Positions 5,612-19,700 of a stretch of 64,000 nucleotides of DNA are shown here, piece by piece; positions within the stretch are counted from its first letter, which is position 1; each line of letters begins with the position of its first letter. The DNA is taken from contig NZ_CP018171.1 in assembly GCF_001889605.1 (NCBI RefSeq), forward strand, positions 2,812,501 through 2,876,500, given 5' to 3'. Both the position numbers and the translations under genes were made by a program. The notes under the pieces were generated by a model. The model saw only the letters and a program-made list of their open reading frames with translations, was not told the DNA's origin and made no database searches. This DNA is from Aquibium oceanicum (GTDB lineage Bacteria; Pseudomonadota; Alphaproteobacteria; Rhizobiales; Rhizobiaceae).

Positions 5612-5701
5612 GGAGGGATGGCCGAGCGGTTTAAGGCACCGGTCTTGAAAACCGGCGTGGGCGCGAGCTCACCGTGGGTTCGAATCCCACTCCCTCCGCC
5701 A
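5612..5701 (+). tRNA. tRNA-Ser (anticodon TGA)
   Basis: A class II tRNA of 90 bases including an encoded CCA (5699-5701). The acceptor stem GGAGGGA (5612-5618) pairs with TCCCTCC (5691-5697). The anticodon arm CCGGT-CTTGAAA-ACCGG gives anticodon TGA, reading UCA and other UCN codons. The variable arm is long (GTGGGCGCGAGCTCACC), as in serine tRNAs, and the T-arm TGGGTTCGAATCCCA is canonical. It marks the left edge of the 5.8-18 kb region that holds an IS remnant and the Hyu/TRAP island. Confidence 0.97.
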
Positions 5702-5867
5702 GATGGCCTGGCAAACACATTCTCCTGCTCACGCTGAAGTGGAAAATTTGTTTTTATTTCCAAGGGATATAGGGCGAGGGCTGTTCACCTCCCAATCTTC
5801 GTGAGGTGGTGCCGGTCTCCGAGACAGGGGCATAAGGTGGATCGACCGATGAAAAAGACGATCCAGG

Positions 5868-6148
5868 ATGAAGACACGCAGACGGTTCATGGCCGAATTC
5901 AAGGCGAAGGTCGCGCTTGAGGCGATCCGCGGTGAGGGGACGCTTTCGGAGCTGGCGACGAAGCACCAGCTTCATCCCACCAGATCACGCAGTGGAAACG
6001 GCAGGCCATCGAGAACCTGGCCAGAGCGTTCGACGACAAGTCTTCCGATGCGCAGGTCGGTCGGGGAGCCGAGGTGACGAAGCTGCGCGCCAAGATCGGC
6101 CAGCTCGTCGTTGAGCGGCATTTTTTGGCCAAAACCTTCGATCGCTGA
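5868..6148 (+). pseudogene. IS3-family transposase OrfA, frameshifted
   Basis: The frame opens MKTRRRFMAEFKAKVALEAI and continues GEGTLSELATKHQLHPT, the helix-turn-helix leader protein of IS3 elements. Near 5980 the expected next residues QITQWKRQAIENLARAF are in a different frame, as if one C had been lost from a CCC run. The second frame then ends KIGQLVVERHFLAKTFDR with a stop at 6146-6148. In intact elements OrfA binds the IS ends and, by -1 frameshifting with OrfB, forms the transposase. Confidence 0.75.
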
Positions 6149-6168
6149 GCCTGGATCGGAGGAAGATC

Positions 6169-6900
6169 ATGATTGATCCCGATCACCCAGGGCTTTCAAT
6201 CCGCCGCCAACGCGAACTCGTCTCGATCTCGCGGGCGTCGTTCTATCGTCAGCCGGCGGGCGAGACGCCGGAGAACCTCGAACTGATGCGCAACACCGAC
6301 GAGGCGTTCATGGAAACGCCCTGGTATGGCTCGCGCCAGATGGCGCGGCACGTGCGTCGCCAAGGCTGGTGTGACGGCCGTAAGCGAGTTCGGCGGCTGA
6401 TGCGCAGAATAGGCTTGACGTCGATCTACCAGCCACCGAAGACCAGCGAGCCGCAGCCCCGGCATCGCATCTATCCCTACCTGCTGCGGCACCGGGCGAT
6501 CGAGCGGCCGGATCAGGTGTGGTGTGCCGACGTGACCTACATCCCGATGCGACGCGGCTTTCTCTACCTCGTGGCCATCATGGACTGGTTCAGCCGCAAG
6601 AGCCAGCCCTCGGGCTTGACCCGAGGGTGCTGGCCTGGCGGCTGTCGATCAGGGGAGCCAGTTCACAAGCTTCGCCTTCACGGCCACGCTGAAGGACGCC
6701 GGCATCCGCATCTCCATGGACGGGCGCGGCCGCTGGATGGACAACGTCTTCATCGAACGGCTGTGGCGCAGCCTCAAATACGAATGCGTGTTCCTCAACG
6801 CCTTTGAAACCGGCAGCGACGCCCGCACTCGACCTTCGGCGGCAGGACACCCGACGAGGTCTATGCTACGGCGGAAATGACGGAGCGACTGGCGGAATAG
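6169..6900 (+). pseudogene. IS3-family transposase OrfB (DDE integrase core), disrupted
   Basis: The frame from ATG 6169 is intact through the HTH_21-like region and the first catalytic Asp (WCADVTYIPM) up to MDWFSRK at 6600. There a short palindromic insertion interrupts it. Afterwards LAWRLS is joined directly to DQGSQFTS, so a few tens of codons between these motifs are gone. ERLWRSLKYECVFLNAFETGS is intact, then another deletion near 6820 joins it to PHSTFGGRTPDEVYA. The stop is at 6898-6900. The three acidic motifs survive but in different frames and with wrong spacing, so the protein cannot be functional. Confidence 0.8.
6607..6627. repeat. Short palindromic repeat inserted in orfB
   Basis: Arms CCCTCGGG (6607-6614) and CCCGAGGG (6620-6627) flank the loop CTTGA. 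The pairing extends outward through CCAGC/GCTGG with a small bulge. The transposase reads correctly up to 6600 and resumes at GTGCTGGCCTGG, so about 26 bases appear added. Sequences of this kind, CCTCGGGTCAAGCCCGAGG, are dispersed palindromes in alphaproteobacterial genomes as far as I recall. Confidence 0.65.
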
Positions 6901-7302: not shown

Positions 7303-8007
7303 ATGTGTCCTATTCCATCCATGGCGGATGGACTGGACATGGATCAGGCACTCGAAGTCACGTCGCGGATGGGCACCGGGGAACTCGCGCAGATCCTTCG
7401 CGACCGGATCGTGAGGGAAATCTATGTGGCCGGGCAGCGGCTGCGTGAGCGGGAGGTTTCCGAGGAGTTCGGCGCGTCGCGGGCGCAGGTGAGGGAGGCG
7501 TTCTCGCTGCTGGTCGAACGCCGCTTGATGGTGCGGGAGGCGAATGTCGGGGTGACGATAGCCCGGCTCGGCCCGCACGAGATCGTCGAACTCTACGAGT
7601 TGCGCGGCGCGGTCGAGGGGCTTGCGGCCCGCCTCGCTGCCGAGCGCGCGCCCGCGGGGGCCTGGGAAAGCCTGTGCCATGATTTCGGCGCGCCCGCCGA
7701 CCGCATGATCGAGGAGCACGACATCGATGGCTATCTCGAACTGATCGACCGCGCCTATCGCTCGATCGTTTCTTACGCCGGCAATTCGGTCCTCCAGGAA
7801 ACCATGGCGCAGATCTACGATCGCCTGGCGGTCCTGGCGCGTCGCTCGATCCTGTTGCCGGGCCGCACGGTGGAGGGGCTGCGGCTGCACCGCGAACTCC
7901 TCGCCGCCCTGGCGGCGAGGGACGGGGAGGCCGCCGAACGGATCAAGCGGGCCAATCTGAGCGGTGCCTGCGAGACGCTCCTGCGCTTCGCCAACTATGT
8001 CCGGTGA
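7303..8007 (+). CDS. GntR-family transcriptional regulator, FCD (FadR) subfamily
   Basis: A 234-residue regulator. The N-terminal winged helix is visible in ILRDRIVREIYVAGQRLRE followed by VSEEFGASRAQVREAFSLL (about residues 27-65). A helical FCD domain follows, beginning HEIVELYELRGAVEGLAARLAAE and ending with the conserved REL..ALAARDGEAAERI helix. FCD proteins sense small organic acids, often a substrate or intermediate of the pathway they control. Starts at 7303, 7321 or 7339 are all possible since none has a strong Shine-Dalgarno sequence; a later start would put the candidate operator further from the gene. It heads the island on the same strand, seven bases before hyuA, so it is the likely local regulator. 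Confidence 0.88.
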   Translation: MCPIPSMADGLDMDQALEVTSRMGTGELAQILRDRIVREIYVAGQRLREREVSEEFGASRAQVREAFSLLVERRLMVREANVGVTIARLGPHEIVELYELRGAVEGLAARLAAERAPAGAWESLCHDFGAPADRMIEEHDIDGYLELIDRAYRSIVSYAGNSVLQETMAQIYDRLAVLARRSILLPGRTVEGLRLHRELLAALAARDGEAAERIKRANLSGACETLLRFANYVR

Positions 8008-8014
8008 GGCGCAT

Positions 8015-10045
8015 ATGACGAGCGCCGCGACCTGGAATGTCGGCATAGACGTGGGTGGGACATTCACCGACATCGCCGCGGTCAACGGCGGTGACGGTCG
8101 AATGGAGGTCCTCAAGCTGCCGTCCTCGCCCTCTGATCCGGCGCAGGCCATGCTCGAGGGGCTGTCGCGGCTGGCAGAGCGGATCGGGGTCACGGGCGCG
8201 GCCTTCACGCGTGTCGCGCACGGAACGACGGTCGCGACCAACGCCCTCATCCAGGGGCGCGGGGCGCGGCTTGCCATCGTCACCACCCGCGGGTTTCGCG
8301 ACGTGCTCGAGATCGGGCGGCAAACACGCCCCCTCATGTTCGATTTCCACACCGACAGTCCTCCGCCGCTGGTTCCGCGGGACCGCCGGATCGAGGTAGA
8401 CGAACGCATCCTCGCGGACGGGTCGATCCATCGCGAACCGACTGAGGACGAGATCGCCCGCGTCGTCGAAGCGGTCGCGTCGTCTGGAGCCGACGCCTGC
8501 GCGGTGTGCCTCATTCACTCCTACCGGAACCCCGACCACGAAGCCCGCATCGGCGCCGCGCTCCAGGCGCGGATACCGAACCTCTTCCTTTCCCTCTCCC
8601 ACGAGGTCCATCCGGAATTCCGCGAGTTCGAGCGGTTCTCGACGACCTCGATCAACGGCTTCGTCCAGCCCGAGATGGCCGGCTACCTGGCCCGCCTCCG
8701 TGCAGGGCTCAAGGCGAACGGGTGCGGGGCGGAGATCGGCATCAACCAGTCGTCGGGCGGGCTGATGCCGCTTAGCCGCGCGGCGCAATTGCCGGTACGA
8801 ACGACGCTGTCGGGTCCGGCCGCCGGCATCGTCGGTGTCCTGGAAACGCTCGGCGACAGTTCGGTAGGTAATTTCATCACCCTCGACATGGGCGGGACGT
8901 CGGCCGACGTGAGCCTGGTGCGCGGATTCAAGCCGACCTTCACGTCGGAGCGCGAGATCGAGGGACGTCCCGTCAAGGTGTCGTCTATCGACATCAATGC
9001 CGTCGGCGCTGGCGGCGGGTCGATCGCCTGGATCGATACCGACGGCCTCATGAAGGTCGGGCCGCAGAGTGCGGGCGCGGTGCCGGGACCGGCCTGCTAC
9101 GGGAAGGGCGGCGATCGCCCGACCGTCTCCGACGCCAATCTCGTGCTCGGTCGATTGCCGGCGGTGCTGATCGACGGCGAGATGCGGCTCGACGAAAAGG
9201 CCGCCGCCGCCGCCATCGGCGGGCTCGCGGCCGATCTTGGTCTGCCGATGCAGGAAACCGCGCTCGGCATCATCGAAATCGTCAATGCGACGATGGTCCG
9301 CGCGATCCGGCAGATCTCGGTGGAGCGGGGGATCGATCCGGAGGGGTTCGATCTCGTCGCCTTCGGCGGTGCAGGCCCGCTTCACGGGGCGGAAGTTGCC
9401 CGCGCGCTGGGCATTCGCAGGGTGATCGTCCCGGCCCGTCCCGGACTGCTGTGCGCCCAGGGTCTGCTGAATGCTCCCTTGCGGGAGGACTACGTGGTGG
9501 CGGTCGGAAAGCGGCTCGATCCGGCGGGCATGGACGCGCTTTCCGACGGCATCGCAGCGCTCGCCGCAAAGTCAGCCGCATGGTTTCGCTCGCTCGAAGG
9601 GGAGGGCGCGGTCGCCTATTTCGCCGATCTTCGCTTCGTCGGGCAGAACTACGAACTGCGCGTCGAAGTCGAGACCCCGACCGATGAGGCCAGGCTCCGC
9701 GCCGCCTTCGTCGCCCGTCATCGCCAGATGTACGGCCATGCGGACGCGGACGCCTCCATCGAAATCGTGGCGCTTCGCGCGGAGGCGATCCTGCCATTGG
9801 ACGGCGGTCAATGGCATCCGGCCCCGTCCGCGCACGGCGAACCAGAGAGCGTCGGCAAACGGGCCGTCGTCTTCGATGCGCGCGGGAACATAGAAGCGGC
9901 GATCTATCGGCGGGAGGCGATCGGGCCGGGCGACCGCATCGAGGGGCCAGCCGTCATCGAACAGACGGATTCCACAGTGCTGGTGGGCCCCGGCGATCGG
10001 CTCAGCGCCGATGATCGCGGCAATCTCGTGATGGAGGTCGCCTGA
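8015..10045 (+). CDS. hyuA: HyuA: hydantoinase A / 5-oxoprolinase family, ATP-binding subunit
   Basis: A 676-residue protein. It opens with the actin-like phosphate motif GIDVGGTFTDIAAV, followed by HGTTVATNALIQGRGA, the second phosphate motif TLDMGGTSADVSLV near residue 290, and the C-terminal hydantoinase/oxoprolinase core (VNATMVRAIRQISVERGIDP, FGGAGPLHGAEVARALG). HyuA works with HyuB to hydrolyse cyclic amides such as N-methylhydantoin or 5-oxoproline using ATP; related pairs carboxylate ketones. The ATG at 8015 (MTSAATWNVG) lies eight bases after the regulator's stop; an in-frame ATG at 7997 is possible but less likely. HyuB follows two bases after the stop. The substrate cannot be read from sequence, but the neighbouring cyclase points to 5-oxoproline. 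Confidence 0.9.
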   Translation: MTSAATWNVGIDVGGTFTDIAAVNGGDGRMEVLKLPSSPSDPAQAMLEGLSRLAERIGVTGAAFTRVAHGTTVATNALIQGRGARLAIVTTRGFRDVLEIGRQTRPLMFDFHTDSPPPLVPRDRRIEVDERILADGSIHREPTEDEIARVVEAVASSGADACAVCLIHSYRNPDHEARIGAALQARIPNLFLSLSHEVHPEFREFERFSTTSINGFVQPEMAGYLARLRAGLKANGCGAEIGINQSSGGLMPLSRAAQLPVRTTLSGPAAGIVGVLETLGDSSVGNFITLDMGGTSADVSLVRGFKPTFTSEREIEGRPVKVSSIDINAVGAGGGSIAWIDTDGLMKVGPQSAGAVPGPACYGKGGDRPTVSDANLVLGRLPAVLIDGEMRLDEKAAAAAIGGLAADLGLPMQETALGIIEIVNATMVRAIRQISVERGIDPEGFDLVAFGGAGPLHGAEVARALGIRRVIVPARPGLLCAQGLLNAPLREDYVVAVGKRLDPAGMDALSDGIAALAAKSAAWFRSLEGEGAVAYFADLRFVGQNYELRVEVETPTDEARLRAAFVARHRQMYGHADADASIEIVALRAEAILPLDGGQWHPAPSAHGEPESVGKRAVVFDARGNIEAAIYRREAIGPGDRIEGPAVIEQTDSTVLVGPGDRLSADDRGNLVMEVA

Positions 10046-10047
10046 CC

Positions 10048-11642
10048 GTGCTCGTCCGTTCGCCCGGCCAAGAGGCTCTGTCGCCGATCCGCCTGCAGCT
10101 TCTGCAGAATGCGCTGGCCTCCGTCACCGACGAGATGTTCGCGGCACTGACCCGCACCGCTTTCTCCAGCAACATCAAAGAACGGCGGGACCATTCGACC
10201 GCGATCATCGACACGGAAGGTCGTCTGATTGCTCAGGCCGCGCACTCGCTTCCCATCCATCTTTCCGGGCTCATAGGCCTGGTCGGAGCCATCGGCGCGC
10301 GCTATCCGCTGGAGACGATCCGGCCGGGCGACATGTTCATCGCCAACGACCCGCACGAAGGCGGCGGATCGCATCTTCCCGACATCAACACCGCCGAGCC
10401 GGTCTTCGCTAACGGCAAGCTGATCTGCTTCGTCTGCACGATCGCGCATCACGCGGATATCGGCGGCGCGCGCGCCGGCTCCATGGCCTCCGGACTGACC
10501 GAAATCTACCAGGAGGGCATCCGGATACCGCTCGTTAAGCTCTTCGCGCAAGGCGAGCGCGTGGAGGACGTCTGGACGCTCATCCTGTTGAACATGCGCA
10601 TGCGCGAGGAGCGGCTCGGGGATTTCAACGCCCAGTTCGCAGCGTCGCGGCTCGGGCTCCGCAGGATGGAGGAACTGACGGCGACGACCGATCCGGAAAC
10701 ACTGCTCGCGGCCTTCGAGGGCATCCTCGCCGGCACCGAACGCCGCATGCGCCATGCGATCGCAAGCATTCCGGACGGGGTCTATGCGTTCACCGACCTC
10801 ATGGACGGCGACGGGCTGGCCGTTTTCGACATCCCGATCGCGGTGCGGATCGAAGTCGCTGGCGACGAGATCGCGCTCGATTTCGAAGGCACCGGGCCGC
10901 AGGTTCCAGGCAACATCAACCTGGTCTTCAACGGACTGCAATCCACCGTCGCCTTCGCGCTGAAGGTGCTGCTCGATCCACACGCTCCGAACAATTCCGG
11001 GCTTCTGCGACCCGTCACGATCACCGCGCCATGCGGCAGTATCGTGAATGCCACGGCGCCGGCCGCGGTCGCCCACAGGGTGCAGACCGGCATGCGGGTG
11101 GTGGACGCGATCTTCGGTGCGCTGCGGATGCCGTCACCGCGGCGTCCAACGGTTCGAACACCTCCGCGATGTTCTACGGCCGCGATCCGCGGACGGGACG
11201 CGAGTACGTCTACTTCGAGACGCTGGGCGGAGGCTCGGGGGCCCGCCGTACCCGCGACGGCAAGGACGGCGTCCAGGCCGGATTGACCAACACGTCCAAC
11301 CTCCCGGTCGAGGCGATCGAAACGGAATATCCGCTTCTGGTGGAGAACTACAATCTGATCGAGGGATCCGGCGGGGTCGGTCGCACGAGCGGCGGTCGCG
11401 GCGTAGTCCGGGCCATACGCCCGCTCGGCCACGCGACCGTGTTCTCGGGATCGGGGGAGCGGTTCCGACACCGGCCGTGGGGCATCGACGGCGGCGGTGC
11501 GGGCCGTCCGGGCCGGTTCTACGTGCTGCGGGACGGCGTCGAGGAAGCCCTTTCGGAGAAGGCGGACAGGGTCGAGGTCGGACCGGCCGACGTGCTGGTG
11601 GTCGAGACGCCCGGTGGTGGCGGATGGGGGCGGCGCGAGTGA
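10048..11642 (+). CDS. hyuB: HyuB: hydantoinase B / 5-oxoprolinase family, frameshifted
   Basis: A GTG start opens the HyuB fold: SPIRLQLLQNALASVTDEM, RDHSTAIIDTEGRLIAQA, GDMFIANDPHEGGGSHLPDI and VCTIAHHADIGGARAG, where the Asp and His residues are conserved family sites. The frame holds until FGAL at about 11123, then runs into unrelated Arg/Pro-rich sequence stopping at 11286. The expected continuation ADAVTAASNGSNTSAMFYG..., through GGRGVVRAIRPLGHATVFSG to PGGGGWGRRE, lies one base over and ends at 11642. Restoring one G near 11121-11125 would give a normal 531-residue protein. No slippery heptamer is present, so it is a point deletion or a sequencing error rather than programmed frameshifting. 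The rest of the gene shows no decay. Confidence 0.85.
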
Positions 11643-12241
11643 ACGGGGCGCTCCAAATCACCGTCGGCATCCGGCGGCTGCTAGAAGTCGCGCTGCACGC
11701 GATGGCGCTGATGGCCGGGTGGGCCTATTTCGCGACGGCCGGCTTCATCACCCTCGACGTGATCGCACGCGCCTTCTTCGGCGTTTCGTCGGGGGCGACG
11801 ACGGAAATCTCGGGCTATCTGCTCGCATTCGGCATCAGCTGGTCGCTGGCGCACACGCTCGCCGAGCGGGCGCACATCCGGATCGATCTTATGCTCAACA
11901 AGGCGCCACTTTCGGTACGGGTCTGGCTTCACCTGTTCGCCCTGCTCGCGCTTGTGGCGCTGGTGACGATCCTCTGCTGGTCGGCGGTAAACGTCATCGA
12001 GGAGACGCTCCTCTTCGATGCGCACGACCTCTCGGCGCTGCGCATTCCGATGATCGTTCCGCAAGGGCTCTGGAGTTTCGGTCTCTTCATGCTGGCTGTC
12101 TTCGCGATCGCGCTGACGGCGGAAGTGGTGCTGCTCCTCGCTCTGCGAAGGCCGGAAGAGATCGACGAACTCATGCGCCCGCACAATTCGCAGGACGAAT
12201 CGGCGGAGGCGATCCGCGCGGTCGGAGGAGACCGCCGATGA
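11639..12241 (+). CDS. TRAP transporter small permease subunit (DctQ family)
   Basis: A 200-residue membrane protein with four predicted helices, around residues 12-38, 50-70, 88-110 and 135-160. The motif TLDVIARAFFGVSSGATTEISGYLLAF and AHTLAERAHIRIDLM are typical of DctQ-type subunits of tripartite ATP-independent transporters. The subunit associates with the large permease and is needed for sodium-driven uptake of a ligand delivered by the periplasmic binding protein. The GTG start overlaps the hyuB stop (GTGA), and the stop overlaps the next ATG, so all are translationally coupled. A longer open frame upstream is not coding. Confidence 0.88.
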   Translation: MNGALQITVGIRRLLEVALHAMALMAGWAYFATAGFITLDVIARAFFGVSSGATTEISGYLLAFGISWSLAHTLAERAHIRIDLMLNKAPLSVRVWLHLFALLALVALVTILCWSAVNVIEETLLFDAHDLSALRIPMIVPQGLWSFGLFMLAVFAIALTAEVVLLLALRRPEEIDELMRPHNSQDESAEAIRAVGGDRR

Positions 12242-13593
12242 TCGCGCTCGTCGTCCTCCTGCTTTTCCTCCTGCTTTTGGGATGGCTCTGGTTGAGCGGC
12301 GCGTCGGTGGACGTCGACATCTGGCCGATCCTGGCCCTCTGCTTCCTGTTCGGAGGATTCCTGGCAGCCGGCGTCTACATTGCCGCGACGCTGGGCGTGC
12401 TGGGCGTCGTCACCGGCTTCGTGTTCTCGGACCGGCCGTTCTACAACTTCCTCGGCGCGACCGCTTGGACCACCTCGTCCAACTACGTGCTGATCGCGCT
12501 GCCGCTGTTTCTTCTCATGGGCGAGTTCCTTTTGCGGTCGGGCGTCTCGACGAAGCTCTACCGCGCGCTGAACCTGTGGCTCAACCGGCTGCCGGGCGGC
12601 CTTCTGCATACCAACATCGTCTCCTGCGCGGCGTTCTCCGCCATGTCGGGGTCCTCGATCGCAACGGCGGCGACGATGGGGTCGGTGGCACTGCCGCAGT
12701 TCGAGGACACCGCCTACGACAAGAAGGTCGTTCTCGGCTCGCTCGCGGCCGGCGGCGCGCTCGGAAGCCTGATCCCGCCGAGCACGCTGCTCATCATATA
12801 CGCGTTGCTGACCAACACCTCGGCGGGCGCGCTCTACACGGCCGCGATCCTGCCGGCACTGCTGGTGACGGTCCTTTGCCTGCTGGTCATCCTCATCCAC
12901 GGCCTGCGCCATCCGCTGCCGAGGTCGGAGATCAGGATACCGTTGAAGGAGAAGCTGAAGGGCACGGTGGGGATCATCCCGACCGTTCTCCTGATCTGCC
13001 TCGTGCTCGGGACGATCTATGGCGGCCTGGCCACGCCGACGGAGGCCGCGGCGTTCGGGGTGGTCGGCGCGGTGTTCTTCGCGGCCATCGAAGGAAAGCT
13101 CACGCTTAGAACCATCAACGAGAGCGTTCTCGCGGCCGCGCGCAGCACGGCGATGGTGGGGCTGATCCTGATCGGCGCCTTCGTGCTGAACTTCGTCCTG
13201 ACGACCCTGCGGGTGCCGCAGTCTATGGCGGCCTTCGTGGTCGACCTGCCGCTGCCCGGCTGGTCGATCATGCTGGTCATCGTGCTGGTCTACATCGCGA
13301 TGGGCACGGTCATGGAAGGCTTTTCGATGATCGTGACGACCATCCCGGTGATCTTCCCTATCGTCATCCAGCTTGGCTACGACCCGATCTGGTTCGGCGT
13401 GATGATCACGCTCCTGGTCGAGATCGCTCTCATAACGCCTCCGGACGGAACCGTGATGTACGTCCTGCAGGGCCTACGCAAGAGCGGTCCGATCACCGAC
13501 ATCTTCCAGGGAGTGCTGCCGTTCGTGGGAGCCTACTTCGCCGCGATCATCCTCCTGCTGATCTTCCCGGGCATGGCGCTGGTGCTGCTGTGA
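12238..13593 (+). CDS. TRAP transporter large permease subunit (DctM family)
   Basis: A 451-residue, strongly hydrophobic protein with around a dozen membrane segments. SAMSGSSIATAATMGSVALP, GGALGSLIPPSTLLIIYALLT and the C-terminal VEIALITPPDGTVMYV are the re-entrant-loop motifs of DctM. It forms the transport channel of a TRAP system and couples uptake to the sodium gradient. The start ATG at 12238 overlaps the DctQ stop by four bases (ATGA) and has a GGAGGAG ribosome-binding site about ten bases upstream. The matching binding protein is encoded at 15765, separated by two peptidase genes. Confidence 0.92.
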   Translation: MIALVVLLLFLLLLGWLWLSGASVDVDIWPILALCFLFGGFLAAGVYIAATLGVLGVVTGFVFSDRPFYNFLGATAWTTSSNYVLIALPLFLLMGEFLLRSGVSTKLYRALNLWLNRLPGGLLHTNIVSCAAFSAMSGSSIATAATMGSVALPQFEDTAYDKKVVLGSLAAGGALGSLIPPSTLLIIYALLTNTSAGALYTAAILPALLVTVLCLLVILIHGLRHPLPRSEIRIPLKEKLKGTVGIIPTVLLICLVLGTIYGGLATPTEAAAFGVVGAVFFAAIEGKLTLRTINESVLAAARSTAMVGLILIGAFVLNFVLTTLRVPQSMAAFVVDLPLPGWSIMLVIVLVYIAMGTVMEGFSMIVTTIPVIFPIVIQLGYDPIWFGVMITLLVEIALITPPDGTVMYVLQGLRKSGPITDIFQGVLPFVGAYFAAIILLLIFPGMALVLL

Positions 13594-14615
13594 ACGACCC
13601 AATGACGAGAGACGACCGAATGAGCAAGACCGCCGGCCCCCTGATGATTGACCTTCTTGGCGGAGCAGTCGGGCTGCTCACGCCTCCCGCCGACGAGCCG
13701 CTCGCCTATGGCCGCAAACTGCTCGATGGCGGTCTTTCCGCCGTCAACCTGACTATGGCGCTCTATGCGCGCGACATTAAGCCGGTGCTGGTCGAGTTCT
13801 TCGACTACCAGAACCTTTTCGCAGAAGCGCCGCACATGCTCCTCCACGTGAAGACAACGGAGGACATTCTCGAAGCGCGGCGCTCCGGGCGTCTCGGCAT
13901 CATCCAGGGAGTGCAGGGGCTGCATTTCATCGAGGACCAGACGCCCTATATCCAGATTCTCGCGACGCTCGGCCTTCGGGTCGCGGCGCTCACCTACAAC
14001 GAAAGCACGCAGTTCGGTGCCGGCTGCCTCGAACCCGTCGACGACGGGCTCACGCTCCTGGGGCGGCGGGCGGTTCGCGAACTGAACCGGTGCGGCATCC
14101 TGATCGACGTGTCGCATGCGGGCGAGCGCACCAGCCTGGAAATCGCGGAAATGAGCGAGACGCCCGTTGCCGCGACCCATTCGAACGCCAAGGCTCTGGT
14201 GCCGTCGGGCCGCAACCTGACAGACCCTCAGATCAAGGCGTTTGCCGCAGGCGGCGGCGTCATCGGAATTTCGCCATACTCACCGTTCTGCGGGACCGAG
14301 GCGCGCCCGACGCTCGACGACGTGCTCAAGCACTTCCGCTACGTCGCCGACCTCGTCGGACCCGAGCACGTTGCGATCGGCACCGACTTCTTCCCGCACT
14401 CCAAGATCAAGTGGGAGAACGGCACGCGCCGCATGTATCCCGAAATGGTCGGCCCCTACGTCTTCGAAACCCTCTATGCCGAAGGGCTCGCCGGGCATGC
14501 CGATCTGCCGCATCTCCCTCAGGCGCTGGAGAAGGCAGGCTTCAGCGGTCCGGAGGTCGAAGGAATCTGCGGCGGCAATGCCATGCGGGTCCTGAAGGCG
14601 GCGTGGGGGGCCTGA
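13590..14615 (+). CDS. Peptidase M19 (renal-dipeptidase-like) family protein
   Basis: A 341-residue TIM-barrel hydrolase. Recognisable M19 features are YNESTQFGAGCLEPVDDGLTLLGRRAV-type spacing, ILIDVSHAGERT, PVAATHSNAKAL followed by SGRNLTD, and the late metal/active-site Asp in VAIGTDFF. The N-terminal HxD motif (DGHND) of classical dipeptidases is absent; the equivalent place reads MIDLLGGAVG. Several bacterial M19 subgroups share this change, so activity is not excluded but may be altered. M19 enzymes cleave dipeptides, some with D-residues at the C-terminal position. GTG 13590 overlaps the DctM stop (GTGA); ATG 13602 and ATG 13620 are alternatives. In this island it probably acts in the cytoplasm on an imported compound. 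Confidence 0.82.
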   Translation: MNDPMTRDDRMSKTAGPLMIDLLGGAVGLLTPPADEPLAYGRKLLDGGLSAVNLTMALYARDIKPVLVEFFDYQNLFAEAPHMLLHVKTTEDILEARRSGRLGIIQGVQGLHFIEDQTPYIQILATLGLRVAALTYNESTQFGAGCLEPVDDGLTLLGRRAVRELNRCGILIDVSHAGERTSLEIAEMSETPVAATHSNAKALVPSGRNLTDPQIKAFAAGGGVIGISPYSPFCGTEARPTLDDVLKHFRYVADLVGPEHVAIGTDFFPHSKIKWENGTRRMYPEMVGPYVFETLYAEGLAGHADLPHLPQALEKAGFSGPEVEGICGGNAMRVLKAAWGA

Positions 14616-14617
14616 CC

Positions 14618-15742
14618 ATGCTCTTCAATCGTCCCCGCGCCGAGCGCGTCATGGAGCGTGAAGGTCTCGACGCGCTCCTCCTGGCCGATCCGCGCACCTT
14701 TATCTACGCCACGGACTTCCCGGTGCCGTCGACCTTCTCGTTCCTCGACCGGCCTTTCCTAGCGCTGGTCTTCGGCGACCGCGACCACACCGCGGCGGTG
14801 GTCCCGAGCTGGGATTTCGAGGACATGAAGCGGCGCAGCTGGGTTCCCGAAATCCTGGGCTACACGGAATTCGCGACCGACATGGACGGCGACCTCTTGC
14901 CCTCCTGGAAAGCCGCGCTCGACCGGCTGCTGCCGGCGAGCGCGCGAGTTGGCTTCGAAGAGCGCTACCTGCCGGCCTGGATCCTCTCGGCGATCGGCGA
15001 ATTGCGGCCGAACCTGCGGCTCGTGCCGGCGCAGGCGGCGATCCGGGACATTCGCTCGGTGAAGACGCCGGACGAAATCGCGCGCATCCGCGTCGCCACC
15101 ACCGCGATGGAGGAGGCGGTCGGAGACATGTTTGCGGCCACCCGGGACGGCGTGACGGAGACGCGACTCGGCCGGGTCTACGCCGCGGGCGTCGCGGCGC
15201 GGGGCTGCGAGAACATCGCCAACTTCGTGCTGGGCTTCGGCCCGGGCGGGGCCGTCAGCCATGCCGTCCCGGGCGAACGGAAGCTTCGTGCCGGCGATGC
15301 GATCCGCTTCGATCTGGGCGCCCGCTATCAGGGATACCACGCCGACACGGCGGTCACGCGCATGTGGAAATCCATGTCCACAGAGCAGGAGAACCTCTAC
15401 CTCGGATGCCTGGATAGCCAACGCGCTGCGGCGGAACTGCTGCGCGCCGGCCGCCCCGTGCGCGAGCTCTACGACGCCGCCATACGCGTGGCGCGCAAGC
15501 GCATCCCCACCTTCCGCATGGAGCATGTCGGCCACGGGCTCGGAGTGGAGCACCACGAAAGCCCTCCGCTGATCGGCGGCGGGGAAGCGGTTCTCGAAGC
15601 CGACATGGTCATCAACGTCGAGACGCTCTTCCTCGACCCGGAACACGGCGGTTTCGCGATCGAGGACACCTACCTCGTGACCGAGACCGGCGCCCAGCAA
15701 ATCACGGGTTTCGACCGCCAGCCCGTGCTGGAGCCAGTATGA
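14618..15742 (+). CDS. M24-family metallopeptidase (Xaa-Pro aminopeptidase-like)
   Basis: A 374-residue protein with the creatinase-like N-terminal domain (about 1-130) and the pita-bread catalytic domain. All five metal ligands are visible: D232 (RFDLGA), D243 (HADTAVTR), H306 (GHGLGVEHHE), E335 (NVETLF) and E349 (AIEDTYLV). Intact ligands favour an aminopeptidase or prolidase rather than metal-free creatinase. It begins two bases after the M19 stop. The open frame extends far upstream out of register with the M19 gene, but that part is shadow. It may trim an imported peptide or N-acyl amino acid before the ring-opening steps. Confidence 0.9.
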   Translation: MLFNRPRAERVMEREGLDALLLADPRTFIYATDFPVPSTFSFLDRPFLALVFGDRDHTAAVVPSWDFEDMKRRSWVPEILGYTEFATDMDGDLLPSWKAALDRLLPASARVGFEERYLPAWILSAIGELRPNLRLVPAQAAIRDIRSVKTPDEIARIRVATTAMEEAVGDMFAATRDGVTETRLGRVYAAGVAARGCENIANFVLGFGPGGAVSHAVPGERKLRAGDAIRFDLGARYQGYHADTAVTRMWKSMSTEQENLYLGCLDSQRAAAELLRAGRPVRELYDAAIRVARKRIPTFRMEHVGHGLGVEHHESPPLIGGGEAVLEADMVINVETLFLDPEHGGFAIEDTYLVTETGAQQITGFDRQPVLEPV

Positions 15743-15764
15743 GGCGGAAACACAAGAAAAGAGG

Positions 15765-16865
15765 ATGGAACACATGAAGACGAGAATGAGACATCTCATC
15801 GCGGCGTCGGTGATCGGCATCGTTGCCGCTTCCGCGGCGCATGCGCAGGACAATCCGACGCTCAGCGGCGAAGGCGACAAGTTTACGTTGAAGACCGTGA
15901 CGCAGACCCTGCCGACCCTGACGCAGTACACCAAGGTCGAAATGCCGATCTACAAGCAGGTCCCGGACTGGACGAACGGCCGGGTCGCCGTCGAACCGTC
16001 GACCTGGGCCGAATACGGAGTTCAGGCCGCCGACATCCTGAACCTCGTGCGGCAAGGCCAGGTCGATGTCGGGGCTGCTCCGCTGGCACAGGTCTCCGGC
16101 CAGGTTCCGTTCCTCGAGATCGCCGATCTCGCGGGCCTGAGCCCCGACGTGAAGACCGCGCGTTCGGTCGCCGACGCGGTGATCGACGCGTCGAACACGG
16201 AACTCGAGAAGTTCGGCATCCGCATGATCGGGACCTATCCCTTCCCGGCCAACATCATGTTCTGCAAGGATGAAGTGGACAGCCTCGCCGACCTCGAAGG
16301 CCACAAGGTCCGCACCTTCAGCCCCTCGCAGAACGATCTCGTCCAGAGCCTCGGCGGACAGACTGTCTCCATCGGCTTCCCCGAGGTCTACGGCGCGCTC
16401 GAGCGCGGAGTGGCGGACTGTGCGGTGACGGCGGCGCTGTCGGGCAACGCCGCCAAATGGTTCGAGGTGACCAACAGCATGCTGAACATTCCCGTGTCCT
16501 GGGGAACCGGCGGCTACTATGTCTCGCTCGACTGGTGGAACGGACTCGCCCCCGACGTCCAGACCTTCGTCGGCGATCTCTACGCAAAGATCGAGGACGA
16601 GCAGTGGGCATTGGCGGCCGCGGGCACCGCGGACGGCGTCGCCTGCAACTCGGGCGACGAAGCGAACTGCAAGATCGGCCAGCTCGTGTCCGCGGAACAG
16701 GCGATGAGTGTCGTGACCCCGTCAGAAGAGGACATGGCCAAGCTGCGCCAGACGCTGACGGATGTCGTGATCCCCGCCTGGGTCGCCCGCTGCGGGGAAG
16801 ACTGCGCGGCGAAGTTCGACGAGATCCTTGGCCCGGTGACTGGCCTGTCCGCTTCGACGAATTGA
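15765..16865 (+). CDS. TRAP transporter solute-binding protein (DctP family)
   Basis: A 366-residue secreted protein. The N-terminus MEHMKTRMRHLIAASVIGI followed by AAHAQ is a Sec signal peptide with cleavage after AHA near residue 28. FGIRMIGTYPFPANIMFCK, LADLEGHKVRTFSPSQNDLVQSLG and FPEVYGALERGVADCAV are the DctP core, including the Arg in KVRTF that usually binds a ligand carboxylate. It delivers a carboxylated solute to the DctQM pair encoded at 11639-13593. Two Cys pairs near the C-terminus (CNSGDEANC, CGEDC) suggest disulfides. ATG 15765 and 15774 are both possible starts; the second gives the more usual MKTR signal opening. Confidence 0.9.
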   Translation: MEHMKTRMRHLIAASVIGIVAASAAHAQDNPTLSGEGDKFTLKTVTQTLPTLTQYTKVEMPIYKQVPDWTNGRVAVEPSTWAEYGVQAADILNLVRQGQVDVGAAPLAQVSGQVPFLEIADLAGLSPDVKTARSVADAVIDASNTELEKFGIRMIGTYPFPANIMFCKDEVDSLADLEGHKVRTFSPSQNDLVQSLGGQTVSIGFPEVYGALERGVADCAVTAALSGNAAKWFEVTNSMLNIPVSWGTGGYYVSLDWWNGLAPDVQTFVGDLYAKIEDEQWALAAAGTADGVACNSGDEANCKIGQLVSAEQAMSVVTPSEEDMAKLRQTLTDVVIPAWVARCGEDCAAKFDEILGPVTGLSASTN

Positions 16866-16871
16866 TGCGAT

Positions 16872-16896
16872 GCCGGGCGGGACCTTCCCGCCCGGC
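16872..16896 (+). terminator. Strong hairpin between the binding-protein and cyclase genes
   Basis: An 11-base perfect inverted repeat, GCCGGGCGGGA and TCCCGCCCGGC, closes over a three-base loop seven bases after the DctP stop. No T-run follows, so it may be a partial terminator or an mRNA-protecting stem that lifts binding-protein output relative to the downstream cyclase gene. Confidence 0.6.
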
Positions 16897-16945
16897 CACT
16901 GACAGCCGGCGGACAGAGCCGACGAGACTTTCCAGGGAGACGAGT

Positions 16946-17968
16946 GTGGATGATGTGATAGGCGAGGCGCTCGACCGCCTCATCTGCGTGGAGATGCGCT
17001 ATGCTTCCGGGGTGCCCAGAGGCATCATTCATCGGCTCTACGATGCCGCCCGCGCGGAGGCTGGACGCCCGCTGACCACGCTTGCGACTGAACTCCTGGT
17101 GAAGGCAGTCAAGCCGGGCGATCGCGTGCTGATCGTGACCGGCGCCGGCGCTCCACCGTTTCTGCCCTACGGCGAAACGGATGGACCGCTCGGCGCGGTG
17201 GCCATCGCCCATGCGCTCGACCTCGCTCTCGGTGCGAAGCCGATTTTCCTGTCGGAGGAGCGCAATCTGGCTCCGATCGCAGCGACGGCGGAAGCCGCGG
17301 GCCTCTCCGTTCTGGCAGAAGACATGTTCGCGGCCCGGGCCGCCTCCGCCATGTGCGTTCCGCTGCTCATGGCTCCGGAGGACTGGGAGGGCCAAGCCGC
17401 CGCGCTCGTCGAGCAGCACCGTCCGGCCGCGGTGATTTTCGTCGAAAAGGGCGGGCCTAACGACAAGGGCCGCTTCCACACGATCACCGGCAACGGACGG
17501 GACCGCACCGTCATGGCCTCGGCCGACGCGCTGGCCGACGCCGCGGGCAGGGCGGGCATCCCGACGATCGGTATCGGCGACGGCGGAAACGAGATCGGCT
17601 TCGGGCGCGTCACGGAGGCGGTCGCCGAGATACAGGAATTTGGCCGGAAGTGCCGCTGCGGCTGCGGAGGCGGCATCGGGACCATCGTCAGGACCGACGT
17701 CCTGATGGTCGCCGCGATTTCCAACTGGGCCGGCTACGCGCTCGCCGCGGGCATCGCGCTGGCAACCGACCGTCCCGACGCGCTCCATGATCTGGGCATC
17801 GAGTCCGACATGCTCGCCGCCTGCGCCCGGGCGGGTGCAGTCGACGGGTTGAACGGGCGTCAGATGAGAGGCGTGGACGGAACGACGGCTGAAACGCAGA
17901 TCGCCGTCATGACGATGATCCACAACATAGTGAGCAACGCGCGCCGACCGCTGCGTCGCGAGTTCTAA
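16946..17968 (+). CDS. DUF4392 protein, D-glutamate cyclase-like
   Basis: A 340-residue protein of the family that includes the C-terminal catalytic region of mammalian D-glutamate cyclase. Diagnostic stretches are VLIVTGAGAPPFLPYGETDGPLGAV (P-loop-like binding site, about residues 55-79), VEKGGPNDKGRFHTITG, IGIGDGGNEIGFGRV and CGCGGGIGTIVRTDVLMVAAISNWAGYAL. The cyclase turns D-glutamate into 5-oxo-D-proline. The GTG start at 16946 has an AGGGAG site nine bases upstream; an open frame further up is antisense-like shadow of the DctP gene. It is the last gene of the island. Pairing with HyuA/HyuB, relatives of 5-oxoprolinase, is the strongest clue to the pathway. The DUF4392 assignment is firm; the exact reaction here is inferred. 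Confidence 0.82.
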   Translation: MDDVIGEALDRLICVEMRYASGVPRGIIHRLYDAARAEAGRPLTTLATELLVKAVKPGDRVLIVTGAGAPPFLPYGETDGPLGAVAIAHALDLALGAKPIFLSEERNLAPIAATAEAAGLSVLAEDMFAARAASAMCVPLLMAPEDWEGQAAALVEQHRPAAVIFVEKGGPNDKGRFHTITGNGRDRTVMASADALADAAGRAGIPTIGIGDGGNEIGFGRVTEAVAEIQEFGRKCRCGCGGGIGTIVRTDVLMVAAISNWAGYALAAGIALATDRPDALHDLGIESDMLAACARAGAVDGLNGRQMRGVDGTTAETQIAVMTMIHNIVSNARRPLRREF

Positions 17969-17998
17969 TCGGCGACGGCGCCTACGATTTTCTGTTTG

Positions 17999-19219
17999 TC
18001 AGGACAACACCAGGAGCCGGCACTCCTCTCCGGCTTCGGCGGGCGGTGCGAAGGGCGCGCGTACGATGAAGGCTCCGGCTTCGGCCATGACGCGGAGCAT
18101 GGAGGAATCCTGGATCATCGAGGGCGTGGCGACGATGCGGCCGTCTTCGCGGCGGATCGCGGCGCGCAGGTAGTCCTGGCGCTGGTCGTTTGCGGACACC
18201 GGTGCGCCGAGAACGCCGGTTCGCAGATCCGCCTCGTGCAGCCGGCCCGCCATGCGCGCAACCAGCGGCTTGAGGAAGACATAGGAGCAGACGAGGCTCG
18301 CTACCGGATTGCCCGGCAGACCGACGATTTTTCGGCCGCCGAGCGTTCCCGCCATGAGCGGCTTGCCGGGACGCATGGCGATTTTCCAGAAGTCGAGTTC
18401 GCCGCCGCGCGCCGTCAGCACTTCGCGCACCAGGTCGTGGACACCGACCGACGCGCCGCCGATCGTCACGATCAGATTCGCGCCCGCTTCCAGCGCCCGG
18501 TCGAGCGTGGCCGATATGGCGTCGCGGTCGTCCGCAACGATGCCGCAGTCGAGCACTCGAGCCCCCGCGGAGCGGACGATTTCGGCCACGCCGAACCCGT
18601 TCGAGGCGATGATCTGGCCCGGCCCCACGATACTGCCGGGCGGCAGCAGTTCGTCGCCCGTCGCGATGACCGCGACCAGCGGCTTCCTCACCACGTCGAG
18701 CGCGGCGTGATTGGCCGAGGCGGCAAGCGAAAGAGCCGGCGGGTCGAGCCGGCGTCCGCGGTTCAGCAACGGCTGGCCTTCGGTGAAATCGAGGCCGCGC
18801 GCGCGCACGTGGCGTCGGGCGGAGACGGTTTCCTTGGCTTCTATGACATTGTCGGCGATCGTGGTCGCGTCTTCCTGGATAAGGACGCAATCGCTGCCCT
18901 CGGGCATCGGCGCGCCGGTGAAGATGCGCACCGCCTGGCCCGGACCGACCGTGCCGGCAAAGGGCCGTCCAGCCGGGGCCGCGCCGATCACCTTCAGCCG
19001 GGCGGGCAGGCGGGAGACATCGGCCGAGCGGACCGCGTAGCCGTCCATGGCGGAGGCGTCGAAGGGCGGCTGCGTGCGCAAAGATACGATGTCAGCCGCG
19101 AGGATGCGGTCGCCGCAATCCGCGATCGGCAGGCGTTCGGCCGCCAGCGGCTCGACGCCGTCGAGCAGCAGGCGCAGCGCCTCGTCGACGGGGAGGAGAG
19201 CGGACGTTCTAGCCTGCAT
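17999..19219 (-). CDS. moeA: Molybdopterin molybdenumtransferase MoeA
   Basis: A 406-residue enzyme from ATG 19219. Family motifs are [73 protein letters not shown] and [12 protein letters not shown]. MoeA inserts molybdate into adenylylated molybdopterin to finish molybdenum cofactor. An upstream ATG at 19246 is in frame but would overlap moaC by 38 bases; the ATG at 19219 overlaps by 11 and gives the usual N-terminus [15 protein letters not shown]. It lies downstream of moaC in the trpD-trpC-moaC-moeA run. In many Rhizobiales lexA comes next; here the 3' neighbour is the convergent Hyu/TRAP island, only 30 bases away. Confidence 0.95.
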
Positions 19220-19700
19220 CGACGCGCCAGTCGCCCGATTTGCCACCAGTCTTCTCCAGCAGGCGGATGCCCGAGATGGTCATGCCGCGGTCAACCGCCT
19301 TCGCCATGTCGTAGATGGTGAGGCAGGCGACCGAGGCGGCGGTGAGTGCCTCCATCTCCACGCCGGTCTTTCCGGTCACCGACGCGGTGGCCTTCACGCG
19401 CAGCCCCGGCAGGTCCTCGTCCGGGTCGATCTCGACCGACACCTTGTTCAGCATGAGCGGATGGCAGAGCGGGATGAGCTCGTGCGTCTTCTTGGCGGCC
19501 ATGATTCCGGCAATCCGCGCCGTGCCGAGCACGTCCCCCTTCCTGGCGTTGCCGTCGAGGATCATGCGCAAGGTCGCGGGCGCCATCGTGACACAGCCCT
19601 CGGCCACCGCGACGCGTGCGGTCTCGGCCTTTGCACCGACGTCGACCATGTGCGCCTCGCCGGAGGTGCTGATATGGGTGAGGGCGGCCTTCTCGGGCAT
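19209..19700 (-). CDS. moaC: Cyclic pyranopterin monophosphate synthase MoaC
   Basis: A 163-residue protein of normal length. [25 protein letters not shown] at the start, [21 protein letters not shown] and [29 protein letters not shown] are the hallmark segments, with the His-containing HPL active-site motif. MoaC converts the MoaA product 3',8-cyclo-GTP to cyclic pyranopterin monophosphate in molybdenum cofactor synthesis. The gene starts seven bases after trpC and overlaps moeA, so the four genes are probably one transcript. Confidence 0.96.

Follow-up and report, generated by a model that had tools for sequence, protein, structure and literature searches.

Several described systems share components with a nine-gene island of Aquibium oceanicum (Rhizobiaceae; genome of 5.32 Mb in two contigs), located at positions 7303-17968 of a 64,000-nucleotide stretch of contig NZ_CP018171.1 (positions 2,812,501 to 2,876,500), and this whole stretch is referred to here as the window. 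The cited papers were available as excerpts, and the descriptions below are limited to these. In Bordetella pertussis, the structures of two solute-binding proteins (DctP) of tripartite ATP-independent periplasmic (TRAP) transporters contain pyroglutamate, and the gene of a eukaryotic-type 5-oxoprolinase lies nearby (PMC5812351, PMC13274462, PMC12344293). A mouse protein with the domains DUF1445 and DUF4392 converts D-glutamate to 5-oxo-D-proline (PMC5339696), and the stand-alone DUF4392 protein TON_0340 of Thermococcus onnurineus is reported to be a weak Mn2+-dependent phosphatase (PMC5132392). The ATP-site motifs of HyuA and an Asp-His-Asp-His metal site in HyuB are known from caprolactamase (PMC8453981), and in Bacillus subtilis ycsI lies within the pxpABC 5-oxoprolinase operon (PMC10448178).

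The island encodes, in this order, a GntR/FCD regulator, HyuA, HyuB, DctQ, DctM, an M19-like protein, an M24-family protein, DctP and a DUF4392 protein. All nine genes are on the plus strand, between tRNA-Ser/IS3 remnants on one side and moeA/trpC/trpD on the other (Table 1; the last three names are a reading of the translations). Adjacent genes overlap or are spaced by 2-22 bases; this spacing is operon-like, and the row is real and coherent. The families, strand, coordinates and tight spacing given in a preliminary description of the row, made without database searches, were confirmed by Pfam and the sequence. The eukaryotic-type 5-oxoprolinase is presumably a family member of the HyuAB kind. 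Like the B. pertussis DctP6/DctP7 systems, the island pairs a TRAP receptor with a gene of the 5-oxoprolinase kind, but the sequences are distant, and DUF4392, M19 and M24 go unmentioned for Bordetella in the excerpts (PMC13274462). A DUF4392 domain is common to the island and the vertebrate D-glutamate cyclase (9030617O03Rik/C14orf159; PMC5339696), whereas the DUF1445 that the cyclase also carries is missing from the island and its genome. TON_0340 resembles the island protein in being a stand-alone DUF4392 with the same fold by model; it differs in its archaeal origin and reported weak phosphatase activity, and no tie to uptake genes is reported in the excerpts (PMC5132392). With caprolactamase CapAB and the ATP-dependent hydantoinase/oxoprolinase family the island shares the ATP motifs and the Asp-His-Asp-His site (PMC8453981), but its HyuB is frame-broken and its HyuA scores far under the caprolactamase cut-off. 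A related arrangement came from the genome surveys below, in loci of the order LysR-DUF1445-DctPQM-HyuAB (L151, L153, L154 and L156), which have a DctP of the same broad subfamily and same-strand HyuAB; the island has DUF4392 for DUF1445 and GntR for LysR, with M19 added. Its DUF4392 gene directly follows DctP, and HyuAB is retained. The island is a further form of the TRAP plus oxoprolinase-type uptake operons.

We read the island as a catabolic operon that entered by horizontal transfer and serves the use of a small carboxylate with a lactam or amide bond, most likely of the 5-oxoproline/D-glutamate kind, and hold this reading with middling confidence. The strongest support for the theme is independent of the island itself: by guilt by association, DUF1445 and DUF4392, which are fused in the vertebrate D-glutamate cyclase, each seem tied to one importer subfamily, itself apparently tied to HyuAB. 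The surveys behind this link covered 394 genomes of the family of Acidimangrovimonas sediminis MS2-2 (order Rhodobacterales; locus L019), the one other genome found with the whole gene set. All survey counts here are lower bounds, as up to 5 or 6 first-look candidates were scored per genome (9 in the DUF1445 survey). The island's DctP profile (E 1e-50) matched at least 107 places in at least 92 genomes, and DUF1445 at least 85 places in at least 82 genomes. Within 10 kb of a DctP of this broad, island-type subfamily lay 70 of the 85 DUF1445 copies, all 70 on the same strand and 67 within 150 bases, distances here and for DUF4392 being measured between matched stretches and not whole genes. Both the DctP type and DUF1445 were present in 72 genomes, compared to 19 expected. 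The link is not described in the literature excerpts found. Among 14 control genomes, DUF1445 (PF07286) was matched in one, B. subtilis, whose YcsI we take to be the DUF1445 protein; its place in the pxpABC operon is a precedent for pairing DUF1445 with 5-oxoproline.

When loci were selected by DctP score alone, 7 of 18 had HyuAB next to the transporter; overall it was 11 of 38, always on the same strand and 76-271 bases off. With 10 loci per 5.3 Mb, a density taken from the window's own genome and not from the 394 genomes, chance would place HyuB in roughly one of the 38 loci, which span 667 kb in total. The 18 loci were the highest-ranked DctP matches with a locus (G940 and G773, already included, were left out, and L148 spans only 4 kb). 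The other 20 were taken in DUF1445 E-value order and have DUF1445 by choice; G1134 and G923 (no such DctP near DUF1445) and G1044 and G874 (already included) were skipped. DUF1445 and HyuAB occurred together in 8 of the 38 loci (one also with DUF2848), HyuAB without DUF1445 in 3, DUF1445 with DUF2848 in 13 and DUF1445 only in 6. The order LysR-DUF1445-DctPQM-HyuAB recurs in the four loci named above, and L149 has the island's own order, HyuA-HyuB-DctQ-DctM-DctP. As a separate observation, HyuA and HyuB share a single open frame of 1191-1296 residues in L151 (3909-7484), L153 (12358-16248) and L154 (12383-16243).

The DctP of the island has six cysteines, and its subfamily includes the DctPs of L019, L020-L022, L048 and L123 (29-66% identity to the island protein). 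In a profile search, 4n4u came first and 2pfy and 2pfz, presumably the pyroglutamate-binding DctP7 and DctP6 of Bordetella, ranked 2 and 3 of 74 solved relatives. Arg183 aligns with the arginine that binds the carboxylate in DctP proteins (PMC4646407) and is kept in every aligned row and in five PDB alignments. A six-cysteine DctP was also considered as a mark of DUF4392 operons and rejected: the profile occurs in at least 92 of the 394 genomes, of 13 stronger DUF4392 matches only 2 have such a DctP nearby, and every one of the 38 loci keeps four cysteines but only 18 keep six.

L019 has the complete set, with all nine genes in identical order and HyuB intact. This genome was the sole relative among 29 candidate stretches from a scan of named genomes with the island's DUF4392 protein, a scan that detects close relatives only. 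Identities to L019 by tblastn were 71% for GntR, 72% for HyuA, 83 and 80% for the two halves of HyuB, 65% for DctQ, 77% for DctM, 86% for M19, 75% for M24, 66% for DctP and 74% for DUF4392. The ratio of nonsynonymous to synonymous substitution rates (dN/dS) between the window and L019 was 0.11-0.35 across all genes. The set is more than a chance grouping, because its order and genes are shared with a genome of another order. The preliminary description had suggested looking for the set in other Rhizobiales; among the genomes searched it recurred in one, of the Rhodobacterales. Matches to the DUF4392 protein occurred in at least 14 of 297 genomes from the order to which the window belongs, 9 of 385 from its class and 19 of 394 from the family of L019, each count including the own or the L019 genome; in these surveys no relative above 50% identity was found besides L019. 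For the M19 protein, no relative above 39% was found in 100 other genomes of the window's family.

The island was probably acquired horizontally. In five relatives, out of 18 other genomes with a match, similarity to the window begins only at moeA (17998-18258), and none has island genes at this border, although L117 and L119 are visible only 4 and 7 kb past moeA, where the contigs end. This picture fits an acquired island. The island is a whole gene set common to two orders, with one subunit broken since.

The broken subunit is HyuB. The preliminary description lists HyuB without a break; the family assignment holds, but HyuB is not a single open frame. Piece 1 covers positions 2-370 of the 519 of Pfam Hydantoinase_B and piece 2 positions 346-518, in another frame. 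By alignment and motifs, the metal tetrad D48, H109, D112 and H134 lies entirely in piece 1, and the part severed is the C-terminal third. A one-base sequencing slip is not a likely cause, because by hand count of the DNA against the intact L019 protein the window is shorter by a dozen-odd bases at the junction. Both halves are under purifying selection relative to L019 (dN/dS 0.15 and 0.11), so the break is young on the scale of the divergence from L019. The partner subunit HyuA has the ATP-site motifs DVGGTFTD (12), DMGGTSAD (291) and GAVPGP (354), following the patterns DxGGTxTD, DxGGT and GxxPGP. Nine further complete HyuB genes were found in the genome (11 matches, two of them the broken pieces), so HyuAB chemistry may persist in the cell through other copies.

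The same break raises the prospect of a decaying passenger, a catabolic import under loss in this strain and with no present role. We regard this as improbable, and it is compatible with the other readings. Besides the broken HyuB, it would account for the tRNA and decayed IS3 remnants on the left flank and for the finding that none of the five relatives has island genes next to moeA. Against it, all genes but HyuB are open, and the dN/dS values relative to L019 are low throughout, though these reflect the long past and not the present.

An AlphaFold model of the island's DUF4392 protein has a confidence score (pLDDT) of 92, and by alignment the protein has all six metal-site acids. E104, D106, E194, D239, E243 and D338 match the metal-binding E59, D61, E115, D157, E161 and D246 of TON_0340, whose structures are the only clear solved relatives, and are invariant in 24 of 24 aligned sequences, the window included. 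The published alignment, which includes the human protein, likewise conserves the six acids (PMC5132392). Foldseek matched the model to TON_0340 with E 2e-19 at best and a TM-score by target length of 0.79-0.87; fold relatives beyond TON_0340 were sought, and none was convincing.

DUF4392 genes were found near TRAP genes in L020-L022, L048 and L123, and in L053 with a different DctP type. In four loci (L020-L022, of one genus, and L048), DUF4392 precedes DctPQM with a divergent LysR gene, which is the place of DUF1445 in other loci. L123 has the order DctPQM-aldehyde dehydrogenase-pyridoxal phosphate (PLP) enzyme-DUF4392-DUF1445. The two domains adjoin each other in L123, L028 and L029 (where DUF4392 was matched only weakly, E 6.1e-7), an unfused version of the vertebrate pair. 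A stronger form of the favoured reading would make DUF4392 alone a Mn-dependent D-glutamate/5-oxo-D-proline enzyme that can replace DUF1445, the operon an uptake-linked pathway in which HyuAB opens the ring of the D-form, and the vertebrate cyclase a fusion of two autonomous bacterial enzymes. We consider this tentative and rather unlikely as it stands.

Other neighbourhoods of DUF4392 differ. Tripartite tricarboxylate transporters (TTT) accompany it in L041, L042 and L045, amino-acid ATP-binding cassette (ABC) transporters lie nearby in L043, L044 and L046, and another ABC system is found in L047. In L043, L044 and L046, two DUF4392 genes flank a PLP gene resembling 'selenocysteine synthase', with an aldehyde dehydrogenase and the amino-acid ABC transporter nearby. 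These three loci sit on plasmids (one Paraburkholderia and two nodule isolates), and the PLP match of L046 overlaps two hypothetical genes. A UbiD decarboxylase adjoins DUF4392 and an ABC transporter in L025, L026, L027 and L047, the last with genes annotated as UbiX, aminotransferase and Asp/Glu racemase. Tandem DUF4392 copies are present in L121 (9441-11612, a single long open frame), L051 (5114-7372) and L041 (7916-10053). A cysteine-rich CxC or CxCxC precedes a GGGIG- or QGGIG-like motif in the DUF4392 proteins of the window, L019, L049, L051, L123 and L124, and is missing in the others. A general association of HyuAB with DUF4392 was rejected, because beyond the window and L019 it was seen only in L045 and L023 among 29 loci, and the HyuAB family is so common that chance could explain these two.

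The diversity of these partners bears on the substrate. The imported compound could be another lactam, cyclic imide or hydantoin carboxylate (e.g., N-methylhydantoin or a cyclised N-acyl amino acid), with DUF4392 a hydrolase or phosphatase of an intermediate and unrelated to D-glutamate; this is possible, if somewhat unlikely. The best solved relative of HyuA in the PDB search is N-methylhydantoinase (E 1e-141), and among NCBIfam models caprolactamase scores best for it, though far under the cut-off (488 of 1000 bits). The stand-alone TON_0340 showed Mn2+-dependent phosphatase activity, and the many unlike enzymes beside DUF4392 agree with such a role. Pointing instead to the D-glutamate cyclase pair are the DctP-DUF1445 link and the three loci in which DUF1445 and DUF4392 adjoin.

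Peptide scavenging was also weighed, in which the peptide imported by TRAP would be pyroglutamyl or derived from the wall, trimming would fall to M19 and M24, and HyuAB and DUF4392 would take the released ring; we find this very doubtful. The M24 protein may fit it. Its five metal-ligand motifs, which we take to be the D, D, H, E and E of the family, are present at 231, 240, 305, 333 and 347, and prolidases are its nearest relatives (5giu, E 3.6e-30, vs. creatinase, 3.5e-9); creatinase and ectoine hydrolase were set aside as identities, prolidases scoring far better. Both genes are also conserved with the set in L019. The M19 protein does not fit. The metal site of M19 dipeptidases presumably comprises an N-terminal HxD and a Glu that bridges the binuclear site, and both are absent from the window and L019 proteins. 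The Glu was missing in 6 of 6 aligned relatives and the HxD in 5 of 5 that reach the N-terminus (12 loci were tried, and 6 yielded sequence through the motif filter). A working dipeptidase was rejected on this ground, and peptide trimming by M19, put forward in the preliminary description, is not supported; because M19 is not a canonical dipeptidase, the trimming story is weak. Its nearest solved relative, 2i5g, is annotated as an amidohydrolase; for PA5396, which we take to be an M19 relative, no paper was found in the PubMed Central open literature. Among the 38 transporter loci, the M19 query matched none and the M24 query one at E 1e-10 (L168); an M24 gene of L153 was matched at 6.8e-10 and by Pfam.

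Several further observations weigh against a 5-oxoproline/D-glutamate operon. Apart from the HyuB break (near 11,120) and the defective M19 site, the whole set is known from two genomes only, the window's and L019, among those searched. The reported vertebrate cyclase activity belongs to a two-domain protein, and the excerpts assign the chemistry to neither half (PMC5339696). No cyclase activity is proven for DUF4392 alone, and in the window's whole genome DUF1445 had no match and PxpA is absent. Since its partners vary so widely (SelA-like proteins, aldehyde dehydrogenase, UbiD, TTT or amino-acid ABC transporters), DUF4392 need not have a single substrate and may act on something else. In the L019 family, island-type DctP was within 10 kb of 2 of the 13 stronger DUF4392 matches (E <1e-20, from 20 rows; seven weak ones were dropped), and DUF1445 was near 1 of the 13. 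In a single-sequence search with the island DctP, 2pfy again ranked second, and 2pfz only 13 of 48; 2pfy is distant and lacks both of the six cysteines that fall within its alignment, and the top structure match, 4n4u, comes without a known ligand. This is also a broad DctP subfamily, in which the members linked to DUF1445 mostly keep four cysteines and not six, and 8 of the 38 transporter loci had none of the tested partners. A DUF2848 match, with or without amidase, was found in 14 of the 38, mostly without HyuAB. Because DUF2848 and amidase follow so often, the common theme may be an acidic amino acid in amide or lactam form instead of 5-oxoproline itself. For every protein the substrate is a prediction from sequence, and none is proven.

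In several DUF1445 operons, DctPQM is followed not by HyuAB but by DUF2848 and an amidase (PF01425). The arrangement was read in L159 (12542-14556), and similar matches occur in L164, L165, L167, L168 and L169. The two families were named by Pfam in L159 only and were counted elsewhere by tblastn matches to the L159 proteins.

The D-glutamate/5-oxoproline theme of the preliminary description is therefore upheld in part. It gains from the recurrence of the set in L019, the DctP-DUF1445 link (70 of 85) and HyuAB beside the transporter (7 of 18), and loses from the broken HyuB, the missing DUF1445 and PxpA and the unproven cyclase activity of DUF4392 alone. In the PubMed Central open literature, DUF4392 occurs in 2 papers and DUF1445 in 5; no paper was found on hydantoinase, TRAP transporter and peptidase M24 together, and the match for D-glutamate, TRAP transporter and 5-oxoprolinase describes another system in the excerpt available.

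Under the favoured 5-oxoproline/D-glutamate reading, the GntR/FCD regulator would sense the compound, DctP would hold its carboxylate through Arg183, and DctQM would import it, as is known for the family. The DUF4392 protein, a predicted metal enzyme in the place of DUF1445, might make or open the ring, or treat the imported acid before HyuAB. By family precedent, HyuAB would then open the lactam at the expense of ATP to give an amino acid. In the weakest step, the M24 and M19-like proteins may act on the substrate in an N-acylated or imide-linked state. In the window strain, the operon's HyuAB step may have been lost recently, or may be covered by one of the HyuAB copies elsewhere in the genome.

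The features of the island and its borders are collected in Table 1. Within the IS3 remnants, NCBIfam transpos_IS3 matched 6169-6807 with a score under the model cut-off. The DUF4392 gene has an alternative GTG start at 16946, which may be the true start. A repeat search of the region gave nothing useful.

Table 1. Positions of the island genes and flanking features in the window
Feature	Position	Strand	Basis and remarks
tRNA-Ser (TGA)	5612-5701	+	ARAGORN; left flank of island
Decayed IS3-family transposase remnants, frames broken	5850-6810 (approximate limits)	+	Three-frame readout and NCBIfam
GntR/FCD transcriptional regulator	7303-8007	+	Pfam GntR and FCD; 71% identity in L019
HyuA, ATP-binding subunit of hydantoinase/oxoprolinase family	8015-10045	+	Pfam, PDB search, motifs
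HyuB piece 1	10048-11286	+	Pfam; HyuB sequence until about 11118, off frame beyond
HyuB piece 2, C-terminal third, different frame	11124-11642 (open frame 11031-11642)	+	Pfam; 80% identity to L019
DctQ, small TRAP membrane subunit	11639-12241	+	Pfam DctQ; GTG start overlaps HyuB end
DctM, large TRAP membrane subunit	12238-13593	+	Pfam DctM
M19-family protein	13590-14615	+	Pfam; highest identity to L019 within the set (86%)
M24-family protein	14618-15742	+	Pfam; prolidases are nearest solved relatives
DctP, TRAP solute-binding protein	15765-16865	+	Pfam DctP
DUF4392 protein	16865-17968	+	PF14336, E 1.2e-58
moeA, right border	17999-19246	-	Named from translation; similarity to relatives ends here

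In the excerpts found, the chemistry of each half of the vertebrate D-glutamate cyclase is unsettled. In the island, a dedicated importer goes together with a protein whose role is uncertain and which corresponds to one half of a vertebrate enzyme. Operons with DUF1445 or DUF4392 in the same place beside one importer subfamily, often with HyuAB, offer a direct way to find the substrate. If D-glutamate or 5-oxo-D-proline were confirmed, the operon would give bacteria a way to use a D-amino acid from the cell wall, or the lactam of that amino acid.

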